From NCBI RefSeq assembly GCF_949628265.1, contig NC_088790.1:2670545-2734544 (forward strand): a stretch of 64,000 bases of DNA, read 5' to 3'. The notes under the pieces were generated by a model. That model was not told where the DNA came from. It searched no databases and saw nothing but the letters and a program-made list of their open reading frames with translations. Shown here one piece after another: positions 6,610-50,200 of the stretch; the stretch's first letter is position 1; each line of letters begins with the position of its first letter. The translations under genes and the position numbers were made by a program. The stretch comes from Cloeon dipterum. Taxonomy: Eukaryota; Arthropoda; Insecta; Ephemeroptera; Baetidae.

Positions 6610-9120
6610 GAGAATAATTATGTTGAAAGAGAGCCCTCCAAGATTTTTTATCTTCCCTCATTTCTCAGCTCTGAATTTCAATTACTTTTGAAAGGTCACT
6701 GCTGCAGAGGTTGTGCAAAACCGACTGTCAATTAATTGTATTATTTTTCTTTATCATTTATAATGTCCGGTGTCGAGACACATATCCTCTTTTCGATTAT
6801 TACATCCAAAAGCCAACAATCGTTCCATTATATCTTCCATAAATAAAGCGATTATTAACGACGAATTTTAAAAAAATGGTTATTTCACATTATATTGAAA
6901 TTCAACAGTGTACTTTCTGCAAGTGCTCATGTGCAGATCTTTCAAATTATTATATTCCAAACTAATTATTGCTCACAAAGTTTTATCCATATTTTGTAAA
7001 TCCATGAAATTAGCTCATTAATACGCTCACCATTTAATAAATCGCGATGGAATTATCGAAATGGAGCGAAAAAACCATTGACAAACCGTTAAATTTTTCA
7101 AAAAAAAAAAATGCAAAATTTGAAATTTAACCGTTTTGCTTGTTCTGATTTTTCAATATTAATCATCATAGAAGCTAGTTAACTGTTGCTAAATGATCGA
7201 AATACCTGCTAAAGCCAAGAATGCAAAAATATTCTTAATTTTGTGTTTGGAACTTTCATAAACTCTCTCAATCAATAATTTTATTTGACCTATTATCACT
7301 GAGACTTTTGTATAAATTTTAACTGTCCTGCTTAAACTTAACATGTTTCAAACATTCCACTAGAGAGTTGGTAATTAAAAAAATGGTTTTCGACCAAATT
7401 AAATACATTTTTGATATTCAGACTGTTTGGGCTTTCCAGATTAAAAAGCAACATTTTGAATCAGATTTTAATGTGGGCCGAGTACCAAATTTATCCCATT
7501 AATTTGGCCCTAAATAAATGGATTTTTACACAAAAATCAAGCATTTTTGACAATTTTTTGTCTAATCGGATATTATTCTTTAAACGCAAAAATTTTAGAT
7601 GTATATTGGAAATTTTTTACTAAAATTAGATCATTAGTAATTGCCATTAAATGCTTTTATATAGGCTACGCAGATTAAATAAACACCAAAAGATTGCAAG
7701 TGATTTCTTATTTACTTTGAAATATATCGGGTGTATGTTAGAGGATAACTCACAAAACTCACAGAGAATATTCGAGAGAAAAAAAACTATATTTTTTCCC
7801 ACAGATCGGAATTTTCAGAGGAACGCATTTCTAGGTCCCCCCTGACGTGAATGGTAAAAGGTTACTCCAGGCTGGAAAGAATAATCCTCATGGGATTGTC
7901 AATGCCAGGTATTTTTTTCTTCTCTCGTATAGTCGTTTTGGTACTTCCATCACGTTTTACTTTCAAACACCCAAAGCGCTTTTAGAAATGTGAGAAAGGT
8001 CTCAGCACTGGAACAAATTTATGTCGCTTCCAGGTGGTCTATCTTGTAAATCATTTTTGTTTGTTTCCCTGTTAAGTCGGAATCGTTTTTTTACTCGACG
8101 TTTCAAAAAAAGTTGTCACCCAGAAACTCATCTTTTCAACTCGACAGTAAAACGACCGCCGTAGCTACCAACCCATTCCATCTGTCATATTTTTGAAGAG
8201 GGACCTCTCTGTATTCATCTCAAAGAATGCGACCGCCCGCAAGGGATTAGGTGGCTTAGGATTCTTTAAATCATTTTACCCCCAGAAACCTTTGGTGTTC
8301 CCAAAGCCATGTGTGACACTTCTAAAAGTTAGCAACAATCGGAATGGGAAGGGCATTGAACATACATATATTTTGGAGCGTGAATTCCTGAGTACACAGA
8401 GTCGAATTTCATGTTTATTTATTTATTTTATTTGTCTACATACAACGATACAATAATTGAAGCTACTCAGTTATCAGTTCCTATTATCGCGTATTTAAAA
8501 ATAAAGTCACACAAAATGAAATGAAAAAAGAAGATAAAATGACATATTATATTGTTTATATTTAAACTACTACTCACTTTAAATTTTCCTGAATTGATTC
8601 TGGATAATCGTGAATCGTGAGGAATGTATTGTTTGTTAAGACATTTTATATGCGACGGTTATTTTTGGTTTACGTTTTGGTTATAGGCCTTGTCCAGCGC
8701 GACTATCTTTTGATTGCCGCAGTTTCAGCGACATGTTCGCTTTGTACATGTGCCTTTTTTGTATGTATATTTGATATCAGTGAAATAAATTAATTTTACG
8801 AACATTTTGGAATATGAATATCATAAAGCGATAAATTGAAGGAGAGTCGGCCTGGACAAGATTTGATTTTTTTAATTTATTTTCTAATTTTTAGTTCCCG
8901 AAATCTATTATAATATTGAAAAATCGAGCATGATCGTTTTAGTATAGCGAGCTAAATCACACTTTTCCAAGAAGTGCTGATTTTAAATTTATTTTTCAAA
9001 ATTGATTCATTCTTATCCTGCGTACATTATTTGAATAAGAAGATTAAAATAAAAAACTCTCTATACTTAATTCTTGTACAGCCAAAATCAAGTTCGTTGC
9101 TATGCGGACGACGGGTCGAA
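6610..9120. other. Intergenic, AT-rich with a dispersed repeat
   Basis: No gene is seen. The block 7890-8640 is a copy of a dispersed repeat listed separately. An open frame at 8193-8456 lies inside that repeat and shows no family signature. Confidence 0.5.
7890..8640 (+). repeat. Dispersed repeat, copy A
   Basis: The part 7890-8130 matches 17637-17880 closely; shared words include GGTCTCAGCACTGGAAC and ATCTTGTAAATCATTTTTGT. The part 8570-8640 matches 12330-12395 and 17980-18030 (CGNGAGGAATGT core). It appears to be an old, non-coding interspersed element of roughly 0.6 kb. Confidence 0.7.
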
Positions 9121-33719: not shown

Positions 33720-36700
33720 TGTACTTTCAGGGTTCCGAATTTTCCCCACCCGTATAAAACCCACCCGGGTTTTATCGGGTTTAACCAGGCTAAAAAACCC
33801 AATAAAACCCACTATTTTGCCCAAGCCTCCAATATTTTTAGTATCAAAAATAAAAAAATGCTGGGAAATAAAATTGTTTTTTGGCTGTTATCTTAACGCT
33901 GAAAAGGTACACTCAAAGAAAAAATTCTCATTTTGAGACGAAAAAATCGGCTCTCAAGTGAGAGTAAAAAAATTCGTCTCACTTTGAGAGCGAAAAGCGG
34001 CCTGCCGCTTTTGCGTCTCAATTTGAGACGAAAAAATCGGCTCTCAAAAGAGAGCGAAATTTTTCGTCTCACTTTGAGAGCGAAAAGCGGCCGGCCGCTT
34101 TTGCGTCTCACTTTGAGACGAAAAAATCGGCTCTCAAGTGAGAGCGAAATTTTTCGTCTCACTTTGAGAGCAAAAAGCGGCCGGCCGCGTTTCGCTCTCA
34201 AAGTGAGACGAAAAAATCGGCTTTCAACTGAGAGCGAAATTTTTCGTCTCACTTTGAGAGCGAAATGCGGCCGGCCGCTTTTGCTTCTCAATGTAGAGCC
34301 TAATCTGTTTTGTACTTACGATCGGCTATGGCAGGCCCCGCAGAACTTTATTTTCAATCCATTTGATGATCCGTTTGGCCGAAAAACTTGAAACGTCGAT
34401 CACGAACAGCATTATTACCGCACTTTTTGCCACTTAGGGACAATGCACTTGACATAAAACGACCTCAAAACCCGACTAAAAACGCCAGCGGCCAGCGTGA
34501 GCCCTTGCCGCGAAAATAGACGGACCAGCTGAAACTGAAACTTTAAAATGTAAACAATGACACTGATAGGCCAATTTTAATTTTTTGGACCAATCACAAA
34601 TTAGTTATGGTTATAATCTCACATCCTTGACTTTGACTGGCGCGAAGTCAGTCTGAAAAAATATAGGAACAAACTAATTTTTTTCAAATCAAGAGAGATG
34701 CCAACAATAATAAAAGTGGAAATAAATTATAAAATAAATACAAAATTAATTGAAATAATAAGTGGTATAATAATTAAAATTATGAAAGAGTAAAATATAA
34801 ATTAATATGGATAAAAGAAATTTAAATTAAAAAAATAAATAATTTAAACATGAAAATAAATACAGTCTTTAGGAATTATTGTTAAAAAACTTCTTAAATT
34901 CAAATCTGGAATATATAACATGCTTCATAAAACGAATAGCAGGTAGACTGGACACGGCTTAAAGAAGTATACATGGTTAGACTCTCAGTTACACTTTTAG
35001 GAATAAACCTTTTTTTAAACCAATTGCTTGCATAATTTTGAATGTTAATTTTTTGAATGTTAATGTCCAAATTCCCGGGAAATCCTGGCTTGCTGGTCAA
35101 TCTATGCATAAATGTCTCAAAATTTTTATTTGTAGCAAAATGTTTTCCTTTCCTGGTGCATGTTATCACATTTTACCATCGGGGCAGCTTCAGGCAAATT
35201 TGCGGACATTTGGAAGAGATGCGCCGTTATTATGTTTTTTCTTAATTGAGATGGTTTAAATATATTCAATTCAGATTAATTAGAATTGGTGGGTTAAAAT
35301 TAAAATTCTTGATAAAATTTCCAAGTTAAAAGCAGGTCCATACTGTCATGAAAGAAGACGAATACGATGCTGCTAATCACTAATTTACATCACTGATGAC
35401 AGTCCTCATCCAAAAAATATGCCAGATTGATTCAAATTATGTTGCTCAATGTTAATATGCCGCTCAGGAAACATTAAAACATGTAAATTTGTACGTGAAA
35501 TTGAAATCTATGATGTCCCTGTGGCCGACTCTAGATTTCTAAAGATTTAATCAAAATTAACATTCAAAATTATGCAAGCAATTGGTTTAAAAAAAGGTTT
35601 ATTCCTAAAAGTGTAACTGAGAGTCTAACCATGTATACTTCTTTAAGCCGTGTCCAGTCTACCTGCTATTCGTTTTATGAAGCATGTTATATATTCCAGA
35701 TTTGAATTTAAGAAGTTTTTTAACAATAATTCCTAAAGACTGTATTTATTTTCATGTTTAAATTATTTATTTTTTTAATTTAAATTTCTTTTATCCATAT
35801 TAATTTATATTTTACTCTTTCATAATTTTAATTATTATACCACTTATTATTTCAATTAATTTTGTATTTATTTCATAATTTATTTCCACTTTTATTATTG
35901 TTGGCATCTCTCTTGATTTGAAAAAAATTAGTTTGTTCCTATATTTTTTCAGACTGACTTCGCGCCAGTCAAAGTCAAGGATGTGAGATTATAACCATAA
36001 CTAATTTGTGATTGGTCCAAAAAATTAAAATTGGCCTATCAGTGTCATTGTTTACATTTTAAAGTTTCAGTTTCAGCTGGTCCGTCTATTTTCGCGGCAA
36101 GGGCTCACGCTGGCCGCTGGCGTTTTTAGTCGGGTTTTGAGGTCGTTTTATGTCAAGTGCATTGTCCCTAAGTGGCAAAAAGTGCGGTAATAATGCTGTT
36201 CGTGATCGACGTTTCAAGTTTTTCGGCCAAACGGATCATCAAATGGATTGAAAATAAAGTTCTGCGGGGCCTGCCATAGCCGATCGTAAGCACAAAACAG
36301 ATTAGGCTCTACATTGAGAAGCAAAAGCGGCCGGCCGCATTTCGCTCTCAAAGTGAGACGAAAAATTTCGCTCTCACTTGAGAGCCGATTTTTTCGTCTC
36401 AAAGTGAGACGCAAAAGCGGCCGGCCGCTTTTCGCTCTCAAAGTGAGACGAAAAATTTCACTCTCTTTTGAGAGCCGATTTTTTCGTCTCAAATTGAGAC
36501 GCAAAAGCGGCAGGCCGCTTTTCGCTCTCAAAGTGAGACGAATTTTTTTACTCTCACTTGAGAGCCGATTTTTTCGTCTCAAAATGAGAATTTTTTCTTT
36601 GAGTGTAATACTGCATTTTTGCACATTGAAAAATTCGCCAGTCCCGGGCCATGAGGATTAAATTTCTTCGTTTCTTGAAAAAATGCAGTGAATAGCAAAT

Positions 36701-36809
36701 TTGAAAAAACCCAAAAAACCCCAAAAAAACCCATATTACCCCCCAATAAAACCCAGGTGGGTCGGGCAAAATGTAAGAAACCCGGGTTTTTTGGAACCCT
36801 GTGTACTTT
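33720..36809. mobile_element. hAT-like MITE with 8-bp target duplications, interrupted by a second element
   Basis: The terminal inverted repeats CAGGGTTCC (33728-33736) and GGAACCCTG (36793-36801) are perfect. TGTACTTT flanks both sides (33720-33727 and 36802-36809), an exact 8-bp duplication as made by hAT transposases. Internal CCACCCGGGTTTTAT and CCCAATAAAACCCA words lie on both shoulders. Without the inner insertion the element is about 376 bp and non-coding, so non-autonomous. A 2.7-kb palindromic element sits between 33910 and 36605. Confidence 0.88.
33910..36605. mobile_element. 2.7-kb palindromic DNA element with TA duplications and TGAGA/TCTCA arrays
   Basis: The ends CACTCAAAGAAAAAATTCTC and its complement are flanked by TA on both sides (33908-33909 and 36606-36607). 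Arms of about 1.14 kb (left) and 1.05 kb (right) are nearly identical in reverse complement; the spacer is about 35053-35554. Each arm starts with about 90-bp tandem units made of nested palindromes (GAGACGAAAAAATCGGCTCT, GCGGCCGGCCGC): four units on the left (33935, 34025, 34115, 34205) and three on the right, which explains the length difference. Both arms carry the same C-terminal protein fragment, NWFKKRFIPKSVTESLTMY, ending CYIFQI-stop (minus strand at 35169-34900 and plus strand at about 35555-35708). I do not recognise this protein. TA duplication hints at Tc1/mariner-like or another TA-targeting superfamily. Confidence 0.85.
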
Positions 36810-45099: not shown

Positions 45100-47269
45100 A
45101 CAACAAGTTAAGGACCAACTCAGGGGTGCCACATTCAGAAAATAAGAGAAAATATATAGCGTTTTTTATTGAGATAAGAGAATTATTTTATCTGTCAAGA
45201 AATATTACCAAAAATTCCAGATTGTAATTTTGTTTTACTTGTAATTCAATTTCATCTTCAATTTTTACTCAAAATTAAAAAAGGGGGAATTTTTGAAAGG
45301 GTAATTTAATTTTAAGAATTGGTTTTTATTAATTTTAAATAAAAATTGTTGGACCAAAAAATTAGGAAATGGTTAAAATTGTCTGAATTCGCAAAAAATA
45401 AACACGTCTCAATTTGCAGAGAAAGTCGGTAAATAAGGAAAGCAGAGAATTATTTCCATTTAACATATTTTGGAGTTTTATTTGTATTACATTACACAAT
45501 ACAATTAAATCCATTTAAGCTGTATTTAATGGTACATGGTGGACAATCAATACAAACTGAATACAGTTTGAAGCGAAATAAACTTTATATATATTTTCGA
45601 ATAATATTTTAATCATTTCTGGGTTTAGTTGCGATAAGATCTCAGGTTGAACCAAGGTTTTCTTTTTTTAAACTCTTTACCCTCCACACTCGGAATTGTT
45701 GGCATTTCGGACATGCAGCTATTTAAGTATTTATATCTCGTGTGGTTTGCTTGACTCGCAGTCGTTGAACAATTACACTTATTACTCTCCGAATATCTAT
45801 AATATAGTAGAGGTAACGTGCAGAAATATAATTATACCGAAAGCACTAAAAAGCTGCTTGAAATTTAATTCAAATATTGGGCCCTCTTCTTTAAAATGTT
45901 TGAATGAAACAATAAAAAATATATAGACGAGGGAGGATAGTAATCATATATAGGCTAGGTGAATATATATATAATAATAAATTTGTTTGTCACAACAACG
46001 CTAAAGGCCGGAGATACCATTTCTGCATATTCTAACAATAAAAATCGCCTCGCATCCACATCAAAAGCTATAAAAGCATTTAAGTTGTTAACATTTTGTG
46101 TGTGTCACATAACCGCATTTTTTGTTAGTTATTCTACGTCTAAATTTCGAATCAAGATACGCTTACACTTTACCATAGTATTTATTTTAAGTTAGTTGAA
46201 TCTCAAATTTTTCCGAGTATAAAATGATTTCCTTGTCCGCTCTTACTAATACCGTTGAATATTTCTTTAATTGAATGTAAGGCTCTTTCACCTCCTTTTC
46301 TCTTTTAAATTCTTCCACGAATGCCAGAGCGTGAGTGTGTTGTGGAGAGCGGTGTAAAATGTAAAACCTTCGCGGTTCGCGGCACATATACATATATAGA
46401 GTATTTCGAAACACAATTATTCAACTTACACACTAAACAAAACGAAAAAAGCAAAAGCATCTGCAGAAAATCCAAAAAACAAGCGTGAGATTCGGCAAAA
46501 TATAATGATTGCAAATGCTTTTGCCAACAAATTTGTCAATTATTGTACTCTGTAAACAAGAACAGTTCTATAAAATGAGGAATACTGCATTTCAGTTAAT
46601 GTACACGCGCATCAATAAAAATATGGCATGATGAGATTGCAGTCGTAACAAATTTTTAGGAATGTTTTGAGTAGTCAATAAATCTAAAGGAATGTTGTCA
46701 ATCTCGCCCAAAAAGAGGACACCCAAAGAAATAATTCTCACCAGCGAGATCGAAAAGAATGAACATTTTCCTCTCAACTGAAATTTCTCAGTTTTTTCGA
46801 TCTGCTGGTGGAATTACTCGCTTCTCGTGTTGTGGCGTGCTTTCATGGCACTACAAAAGGCAGTAAAGCTACACAGAGAGTGTTAGGTTTTACACTTCAC
46901 ACCACCAGGGTGAAATATCCCTCGAGCAAACGGACAAGTTAGACAGTCGTGCGCGGTGTGGAAAAGTGATAACTTGTCCGTACGTGTGTGATCAAAGCTG
47001 TTAAGAGTGATTGATTACATCAAAAGTAGGCCTACATATTAAGTATATAAATCTGAAAGAAACGTCATGGGTGGACTTCATTTTGATCAGTTAGATTTTT
47101 GGTCTCCACTCCCCCCGGAAAGTAAAAACTGCTCTTTCTCTCTTCATTTCTTCGGTGATTATAATTAGAGACTTGCGTTGGCGGCCAAAAGTGAGTTTGC
47201 ACAAGCATAATCTAGTTGAGTGGAGCTCTCATTTCGTAAATTTGTCAAAGTGTGAGCAGGATAGATGGT
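45100..47269. other. AT-rich; possible long 3' UTR of the testican-like gene
   Basis: No coding region is supported. Small open frames near 45696-46195 lack bias and splice context. Part may be 3' UTR of the minus-strand proteoglycan gene. The words CGGACAAGTT (46930) and AACTTGTCCG (46971) form a spaced inverted repeat in a GC-richer patch at 46890-47000. Confidence 0.4.
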
Positions 47270-50200
47270 TTAGAAGTCGAGAGGTTTTTCAGCGCTACCC
47301 TCCTCTTCCACGTCATCGCCGTAATCCTCCTGGTCTGAGTCGTCAGAACCGTTGCTATTGTTTTTGGCCATAATCGAAGCTGAAAAGTGGGCGCAAAATA
47401 TTTACAATAATTATTTCAAAAAGGCTTCAATTTGGATTCTGAGGAAAACCTATAAATTTGATTAGTTTATACTTTAGTATTACTCAGAAGTAAAGAGGAA
47501 AAACTTCTAACGGTGAGAAGAAAACTTTGAGTCTCACCGTGAGTAACAGACGCAGCCGACCGCTTTTGGTTCTCACATTGTCAGTTGAGACTGAAGCGAG
47601 CGACCATTTTGGTTATAACCGTAAGTACGAGAGGCGGCCCAACGCCTAAGGTTCCCACTGTGAGATCCAAAAGCGTCTGGCTGCCTCAGTTTCGTTCTCA
47701 TTTTGAGAGCCACATTTTGCTTCTCATCGTGAGAATATTTTCTTTGAGTGTTCTTCAGTAAAATTTTGAGGTATTAAAAATGAGACTAACTGATCTCAAC
47801 TTGAAACTAAGTGATCTTGACATGAGACCGAATAATCTCAACCTGAAATCGAATAATCTCAACTTGAGATTGAATGATCTCACCTTGGGACTAAGTGGTT
47901 CCTCTTTTTATTCCTCTTTTTTAATAATATGAATTGCAACGATTAAAAAAGGAAATTCCAGTTTTACTTGGATTGTCTAAAATAGCATAGTGATCGATTT
48001 GTCTCATTAGATATTGTCTCTGAAAAGTATTTCATCGCTTTAAATCGATTTTGAAATACATGCCCACTTCAAGGTAAATCGCGAGGTAAAATATTCCAAA
48101 ACTAATCCAACAATTTTACTATGAATAATAATGCAGAATTTGGTTTTAATAAAGCTTTGCCGATTTTGCTGCGGCTTGAGCCATGAATGAGCAATTCGTG
48201 AGTGCTCCATAAAGGAATTTTTGTACCTCAAGAAGTTTTACAACTCTTCTGAATTTTTAGATTTTTTTTAAAAAAATATGATTTTTATGTTTGAAATTTT
48301 TTGTGTAAGGCATATTATTGGAATGTAACTATATCTGATGTAAAACCTCGCCAAAAGTCAATTAAAATTATTATTACTCACCACAGTCAGGCTTGCCACG
48401 AGTTCTGGTATTGGCAAATTCGACGCCGTGCTTGTCGACGCACCAGCAAGTGCCAATCGACGAGTGGCACTGAGTTGGACGGTAAAAGCCGAGGACATCA
48501 CATTCAGGAACATAAGAGCCTGCACCAAAAATAATAAGTTTTAAATTGAATACTAGGAAAATTACTAACTGACCCAAAATGTCCTGCGAGATCCTCTGCT
48601 TGTAGGCGATGCACGGGCGCTCGGAACGCTCGAAACACCGGCACCACTCTTTTGGTGACACGTATCCATTCCTATTGTAAGAAAGATTTAAATTTGCGTG
48701 GCTGTGGAGAGGAGACGACTTACTTGTCTGCATTGCACTGGTCAAGGAATGGCTTGATGCAGTGCTCGCTCTTGTCGTGTTCCAGGTCATACAGTTCACT
48801 GACTGAGAGTTGCTCGTCTGTGTTCGAGTCCAGGTGGGCGAACATCCATCGCACCTCCGGTTTGCACGTGTTGGGGAACCGGGCGGTCGACTTGACCAAC
48901 TTGCGCCTCTTGCCGGTGTGTCTGTCCTTCTTGGCATCGGCCATCAGCACGCTGAACCAGTCGAGCAGACGGTTGCCCATCGTCTCCAAGGCAGACGGAC
49001 TGCACTCGGGAATTACTACATTGATCGAGTTAATGGAGGAAACATTCTTTAAAAAAAATTAATCCGTCTACCTTTGTTCCAGTTGGGAGTTCCCTTGGCG
49101 CCAAACTTGTTCTTCGAGTCCAAGACTTCGTTGTAGCTGTGGTGCTTGTCCTGGGCGAAAGGAGAACTGGTCGACTGGCCGCTGAACTTGCTGTACTTAA
49201 TGTACTTGTAGTGCTTGTTGTCGTACTTGAAGTCCTGCGGAATGTAGTTGTACTTGTCCGGCAATCCCGAGGGCGACTTGTTGCTCTTCTTCATGGTGGC
49301 CTTGAGCTTGGCGTTGTATGCGGCCAGCCGCTCCTCCTTTTGCTTGTGGTGAGCCTCTTCCTGCGGCTTGCACGGACAGAAGCCCTTGCAGGCCACTCGA
49401 ATGCTCGTTTTGTGCACGCAGTTGTGGTAGTCCAGCCTGCACACCGAGCTGTAGGTGCGGTTGTCTGCACCGCAGTGGAACGAAGGCTTCACCACTGGAC
49501 AAGGCTTGCATCTCCTGCAAAAATGATTCATTAAGATCCTCAATTTCAGGCCTCTCAATTTCAGGATCTCAACTTTTAACTTTGGGCCAAATGTTCTCAC
49601 TTTGAGACCGAATGATCTCAATTTGAGACTGAATGTTCTCAATGTTAGGAAAAATGATATCAACTCCAGACTCTATGATCTAATCTTGAGACCGAACGAT
49701 CTCATCTTGAGACTGAATCAACTCAATTTGAGACCAAATAATCTCAATTTGAGACCAAATGATCTCAATTTGAGACCAAATGATCTCAATTTGAGCACAA
49801 ATTATCTCAATTTCACGCCAAATGATCCCAACTTCAGACCAAATGACCTCACTTTGTGATCGATTGATCTCAACTTGATGCCAAATGATCTCGAATTCAA
49901 ACCGAATAATCTCCTCATGTTGTGATTTTCATTTGAATTTAAAAAATGATATTTTCATCCGATCGTGATAAAATTTTCTATGGATGATCTCCTTAACGGG
50001 AAGAATCAATCATATTCATTTTGTTTTAAATATTCAAACAAATATTTGAAAATTACACCACAGACAAGTTAATAGTTCATGGCTCAAAACTCCTAAATAA
50101 ATATTATTATTTAACAAATATATACATTTAAATAAAAATCACATTTAAAAGGTTATGTTAAAGTGATAAACAAAATAAAATAGCTAGAAATTCTTACGTT

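Follow-up and report, generated by a model that had tools for sequence, protein, structure and literature searches.

What is the long palindrome at 33910-36605 of the window, by which we mean the whole stretch of 64,000 nucleotides analysed here, and how did it come to lie there? The first-pass annotation had proposed a member of a new mobile family, with arms of about 1.1 kb, subterminal arrays and TA duplications. Inverted-repeat alignments and exact shared ends bear out the palindrome: positions 34016-35052 match 35553-36589 in inverted orientation at 97.6% identity over 1,037 nt, and 33908-34204 match 36311-36607 at 97.3% over 297 nt. The element is 2,696 bp long, has exact ends and is adjoined by TA on both sides, as had been read. 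Its arms measure 1,143 bp (left) and 1,053 bp (right) and are separated by 500 bp (Table 1). The 21-bp end CACTCAAAGAAAAAATTCTCA matches exactly at both termini. With up to three mismatches allowed, this end has four matches in the window against 0.01 expected from shuffling, and the other two lie at 46720 and 47730.

Table 1. Features of the palindrome and its host element, and loci of the sister family. Positions refer to the window unless a C-prefixed locus is given.
Feature	Position	Strand
8-bp duplication TGTACTTT of the hAT-type MITE	33720-33727 and 36802-36809	
Host hAT-type MITE, ends CAGGGTTCC / GGAACCCTG	33728..36801	.
Left TA of the palindrome's 2-bp target-site duplication	33908..33909	.
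Left terminal inverted repeat CACTCAAAGAAAAAATTCTCA	33910..33930	+
Left arm	33910..35052	+
Left subterminal array, four 90-bp units of nested palindromes	33926..34292	+
7-bp tandem duplication GCCAGCG, in the window copy only among seven	34484..34490; right arm 36115-36121	+ (left-arm copy)
Open frame with the fragment NWFKKRFIPKSVTESLTMY, probably not a gene	34900..35169	-
Spacer, mostly arm sequence in L010; unpaired after an off-centre internal deletion	35053..35552	.
Right arm	35553..36605	-
Right subterminal array, three units left after the loss of one	36315..36589	-
Right terminal inverted repeat	36585..36605	-
Right TA of the palindrome's 2-bp duplication	36606..36607	.
Sister-family loci	C5:1916155, C2:34380194, C1:22901339, C1:6635189, C5:15353581, C5:2067584, C2:1821249, C4:21783208	
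Sister-family copy with TG on both sides	C4:21783208-21784455	

The palindrome is nested within a hAT-type MITE, which the first-pass annotation had not seen. A search for empty sites with the two MITE flanks joined gave at least 42 matches, among them the window's own two halves and several partial matches. All 12 of the other MITE copies that we fetched run on uninterrupted with a single TA, so the window palindrome is a genuine insertion, made at a TA and accompanied by duplication of these 2 bp.

We searched the genome (190 Mb, ten contigs) for copies of the palindrome. The exact 21-bp end is paired at no fewer than seven places: the window, L009, L010, L011, L012, L013 and L014. These seven two-ended copies are spread over five contigs and have different flanks, which upholds the proposal of a mobile family with defined CACTCAAAG ends. 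Longer copies with such ends, which the annotation had suggested looking for, also exist; the 3.66-kb L010, for example, has arms of 1,572-1,575 bp and a spacer of 514 bp. Copy lengths run from 2,696 to 4,145 bp, with L011 at 8,991 bp including a retrotransposon-like insert, and the right arm of L009 contains about 1.5 kb of other sequence. Roughly 436 of the 500 bp of the window spacer are arm sequence in L010. Since about 900 bp of the L010 form are missing off-centre from the window copy, most of its apparent spacer is former arm. The copies are flanked by TA in the window, L009 (where six bases match, TACATA), L010 and L013, by TT in L012 and by CT in L014; L011 has no matching flanking repeat at its two ends. 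The arms of L010, L011 and L012 are only 0-2 substitutions apart in up to 745 bp, and this near-identity indicates that the family was recently active.

Neither 21-bp end had an exact match in viral contigs, and an Rfam search for structured RNA gave nothing at gathering thresholds. As to the proposal of a new family, a literature search with the end sequences returned no title concerning a transposon. These results do not make the element a new kind, as its ends and 2-bp duplications resemble those of the known CMC (CACTA-Mirage-Chapaev) group. An ungapped scan recognised no far end in ten diverged or flank-sharing relatives (L015-L020, L029-L031 and L035), and in L015 it found an inverted arm whose end is not clear. 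The older relatives L016, L017 and L019 (C1:37.87, 37.97 and 38.73 Mb) have one end each and a common outer flank, and so look like copies of one duplicated region; a hAT MITE copy lies within about 1 kb of each.

Each arm of the palindrome carries an array of 90-bp tandem units, with 4.1 copies on the left and 3.1 on the right. The units are built from nested palindromes in both arrays, as had been described. Every unit holds three of these, TCTCANNNTGAGA, CTCTCAAGTGAGAG and the GC-rich GCGGCCGGCCGC, with minor changes from unit to unit. Of the 26 TCTCA(N2-4)TGAGA motifs in the window, 18 fall inside the two arrays. The annotation was right to count four units against three in the window copy, and the inequality comes from the loss of one unit. 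Four units are present in 12 of the 14 arms of the seven copies, and three in the right arms of the window copy and L013. In the left arm of L014 one core is altered and the array length is as before. The window right arm is without the third unit, with the junction within the second and third units, while the L013 right arm has kept the third unit and is missing the first or second. Because different units are missing, the two losses are independent. The four-against-three arrays are thus unit losses, two independent ones. It is plausible, as had been suggested, that the arrays are putative transposase-binding sites.

Using the array of another window element, at 46720-47750, as the query, we came upon a sister family whose ends are CACTCACAGAAAAATTTTTCA. 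This family includes at least eight loci with both ends in opposite orientation (Table 1), which are 1.2-2.1 kb long and several of which have identical ends. The sister arrays align at about 70-77% to a 90-bp first-family unit, and their palindromes come in the same order. Flanks of the sister type are TA at C5:1916155, TG at C4:21783208 and TA at C4:25656574 (617 bp). A third family is represented by L022, a full palindrome of about 5.29 kb that is 98.4% identical to its own reverse complement. It has ends CACACAGAGAAAAA and TA flanks, and about 430 bp of its arm are about 72% identical to the first family. The end pattern CACWCANAGAAAAA and 2-bp duplications are common to the first family, the sister family and this 5.3-kb palindrome. 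We counted flanks in 12 two-ended elements, namely seven of the first family, three of the sister type, L022 and window 46720-47750. The 2-bp flanks match in ten of them (TA in seven; TT, CT and TG in one each) and do not match in L011 and window 46720-47750.

The first-pass annotation had also pointed to the same C-terminal protein fragment in both arms. The fragment, NWFKKRFIPKSVTESLTMY, is indeed in both arms, because the arms are copies of each other, but it belongs to no Pfam family above cut-off. It was read in 11 of the 14 arms, where the frame is always open and differs from the window form by at most two residues over 41, and one further time internally in L009. The profile comparison with transposase families that had been proposed for this fragment yielded nothing above the Pfam cut-off: no Pfam family matches the window frame at E up to 1, and the L009 frame matches DUF707 at E 0.023 with 14.4 bits against a cut-off of 24.1. 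The fragment is probably meaningless as protein, and we see no reason to regard it as a transposase remnant.

Frames of at least 70 codons were collected from the seven copies, L022 and five sister-family loci (some in part). Outside the inserts of L011 and L009, the seven copies have no frame longer than 159 codons, and the 159-codon frame itself lies in the arrays. The L009 insert has no frame over 138 codons. When 14 frames were compared with Pfam at E up to 1, none reached a cut-off; the best match was PrmC_N at E 0.0069, from an array frame. Frames read by eye were those of L010, L011, L018 and L022, those of L015-L028 (at least 95 codons), and those of L029-L035 and L018 (at least 130 codons). 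No recognisable transposase is present in any copy read. We conclude that the window element is a young, non-coding foldback transposon, one of several related families. Three frames were considered as family transposases and rejected: the long frame of L011 looks by eye like a gypsy-type retrotransposon, the L015 frame is RVT_1, and the long frame of L018 looks by eye like an ion-channel gene.

Long palindromes are commonly thought to be unstable. We compared the array-free part of the arms among the seven copies. The two arms of a copy differ at 2 of 751 positions in the window, 0 of 630 in L009, 0 of 744 in L010, 0 of 555 in L011, 1 of 745 in L012, 1 of 753 in L014 and 6 of 741 in L013. Between copies there are 0-14 differences, with a mean of 7.3 over 84 pairs. 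Both window arms carry three substitutions that are absent from the six other copies, as well as the 7-bp duplication in Table 1 and a 2-bp deletion, within a variable A run, that is found in none of the six others. Both L009 arms have three private substitutions; a gap in these arms also occurs in the right arm of L013, and hence is not private. In a tree of the arms, the two window arms group as sisters with support of 99/99, and the two L009 arms with 97/92. These two are the well-supported ones among the nine inner branches; the other seven are not well supported.

The private changes in both window arms indicate that the arms evolve in concert. This suggests that the arms copy sequence from each other. 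Independent mutation could hardly have produced the same private changes in both arms, and copying between arms, in the window copy or its source, would yield them. Alternatively, each lineage could have passed through a new palindrome made from one arm; the similar central junctions of L010, L012 and L013 speak mildly against this. L013 is the exception to the close agreement of arms. Towards either end of the alignment its two arms match, and they differ in columns 309-461, where one arm resembles L014 and the other resembles L010, so that the block looks as it would after one-sided conversion from another copy. L010, L011 and L012 are uninformative on conversion because they are only 0-2 differences apart. 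Private mutations in both arms of single copies are a direct record of exchange inside long palindromes.

How does such an element move? We infer, with a probability of roughly 0.6, that it is a non-autonomous foldback element moved in trans by cut-and-paste by a CMC transposase, and that its arms are copied between each other. The transposase, most likely one of the CMC group, would be encoded elsewhere and act in trans on the foldback element, moving it by cut-and-paste with a 2-bp target duplication, TA being preferred. The nested-palindrome arrays by each end would be sites binding several copies of the transposase or of a helper protein. Gene conversion or hairpin-templated repair between the arms would keep them alike. 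Off-centre central deletions together with array-unit loss produce the length variants.

Long inverted arms, internal repeats and the lack of a transposase are those of a foldback element. Ends of the form 5'-CAC..GTG-3' and 2-bp duplications are marks of CMC MITEs (PMC6004678, excerpt), and the CMCT clade mostly has CA..TG ends and duplications of 2-5 bp (PMC12730594, excerpt). The elements described here have 5'-CAC..GTG-3' (CA..TG) ends, and their duplications fall in this range, with a single TA at the empty site of the window copy in 12 of 12 fetched MITE copies and a 2-bp match in 10 of 12 elements. The ends read CACTC and CACAC, and so have neither the CACTA core of plant elements nor the CCC core of animal TRC elements.

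Profile searches of the whole genome found three long CMC-like frames: C4:32405068 (693 aa; Transposase_21, E 0.02, 20.4 bits), C1:42675451 (710 aa; DUF1258, 32.1 bits) and C4:31172008 (741 aa; DUF1258, 28.1 bits), all below the curated cut-offs. Transposase_21 had no match in the genome at E 0.001, and the DUF1258 search gave two frames plus one poor match. Neither profile matched anything in the control genomes, and each missed the frames of the other. As fragments, C4:32405068 and C1:42675451 are each hit by both profiles in largely the same segment, and are 47% identical to each other; the C1:42675451 fragment reaches 33.5 bits against the 33.1 of DUF1258, the sole cut-off passed. Since the two profiles coincide there, DUF1258 looks to be a transposase domain of the CMC type. 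Among the matches listed, no CMC-like frame lies within 200 kb of array ends, nor did an autonomous partner carrying these ends come to light. Because the three frames are below cut-off and unlinked to the listed array ends, the CMC assignment is a best guess. A wider reading, which we hold only tentatively, is that there are at least three related CMC-type foldback families, in which a three-palindrome end module would be bound cooperatively and the arms would be continually rewritten.

The same results leave a small chance that the transposase comes from a superfamily not yet described. The copies read are without a recognised transposase and the CMC-like frames are unlinked to these ends; on the other hand, the ends and the duplication length already fit a known group. 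A Tc1/mariner-type transposase always duplicates TA. Movement of the foldback by such an enzyme would fit the TA found in seven of the ten elements with matching flanks, the window copy included, but is unlikely given the TT of L012, the CT of L014 and the TG of C4:21783208-21784455, which are each alike on both sides and known from flanks alone.

A PHIS-group transposase, from an ISL2EU or Harbinger relative with TA duplications, is an improbable source of movement. The genome has one ISL2EU-like locus (L037, found by a YqaJ search, with DDE_Tnp_4 and YqaJ frames), and a PHIS lineage in rust fungi makes TA duplications (PMC12730594, excerpt). ISL2EU ends usually begin with GG, however, and the duplication is AT (PMC4482050, excerpt), neither of which we found in our elements. 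L037 aligns with the element no better than at E 0.07, and with the L022 arm no better than at 0.006 over 25 bp; it has no TCTCA array but a lone TACACTCAGAAACTGG at 962. The two frames of L037 are convergent and lie between 755-bp inverted repeats (1-755 and 8335-9089) that are 100% identical. Finally, a local inverted duplication or assembly artefact, for which the palindromic shape alone might speak, is practically excluded by the recurrence of these ends, with different flanks, at seven sites on five contigs, and is refuted by the clean empty sites.

The P superfamily makes target duplications of 8 bp. The 2-bp duplications described here differ from the 7-8 bp of Galileo and the P superfamily, and from the 8-10 bp of Mutator foldbacks of the Tetris type. 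Foldback elements are mostly Mutator, with exceptions such as Galileo of the P superfamily (PMC4079207, excerpt). If our reading is true, the foldback form would also have arisen in another superfamily, since the present group combines CMC-like ends with 2-bp duplications. Among the titles listed by literature searches, none concerned a CACTA foldback.

The closest parallels by description are found in several known systems. According to excerpts of PMC6004678, the wasp/polydnavirus CACTA-type MITEs CMC-NA_1 and CMC-NA_2 likewise have 5'-CAC..GTG-3' ends and a 2-bp duplication, are non-coding, and have no autonomous partner found; they are short (the MITEs of that study span 116-422 bp), whereas ours are kilobase palindromes with arrays, and the likeness is one of description, not of end sequence. 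ESTA, a fungal EnSpm-like element of the CMCT clade, shares the TA duplication but is coding, and is again likened by description, not by sequence (PMC12730594, excerpt). The non-coding foldbacks Tetris and DAIBAM of Drosophila virilis have tandem repeats within long arms, for which their authors proposed repeat homogenisation; they differ in being Mutator elements with 8-10 bp duplications and repeats of about 220 bp (PMC4079207, excerpt). Galileo of Drosophila also has long, internally repetitive inverted repeats whose repeat number differs from arm to arm, and chimeric copies occur, but its duplications are 7 bp (PMC3573991, excerpt) and its transposase is P-type with a THAP domain (PMC3688188). 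En/Spm and other plant CACTA elements resemble ours in that their subterminal inverted repeats combine GC-rich with AT-rich segments and that non-autonomous derivatives are moved in trans. In the plant elements TNPA-like proteins bind the subterminal repeats. They differ from ours in their CACTA core, in being much longer and coding, and in not being palindromic (PMC2613891, excerpt). The animal TRC element SmTRC1 has 2-bp direct repeats (7 of 14 copies) and a Transposase_21 domain, to which the genome studied here has diverged relatives, but its ends begin with CCC (PMC1636069, excerpt).

Window frames carry Kazal, SPARC calcium-binding and thyroglobulin domains, which mark the genome as that of an animal. 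The ends of the second window element, at 46720-47750, are CACCCAAAGAAATAATTCTCA / ..TTTGAGTG and enclose a minus-strand frame at 47270-47401. This frame has no Pfam match; by eye it resembles an acidic final exon belonging to the adjacent testican-like gene, which is of the Kazal-SPARC-thyroglobulin type. This exon either came from a transposon or lies between two unrelated transposon fragments. The testican-like gene region also contains 21-bp tandem arrays (CCAAATGATCTCAATTTGAGA) of TCTCA/TGAGA at 49587-49897 and 47781-47897. No transposon ends were seen at these arrays, which are possibly a satellite derived from the TCTCA/TGAGA arrays.
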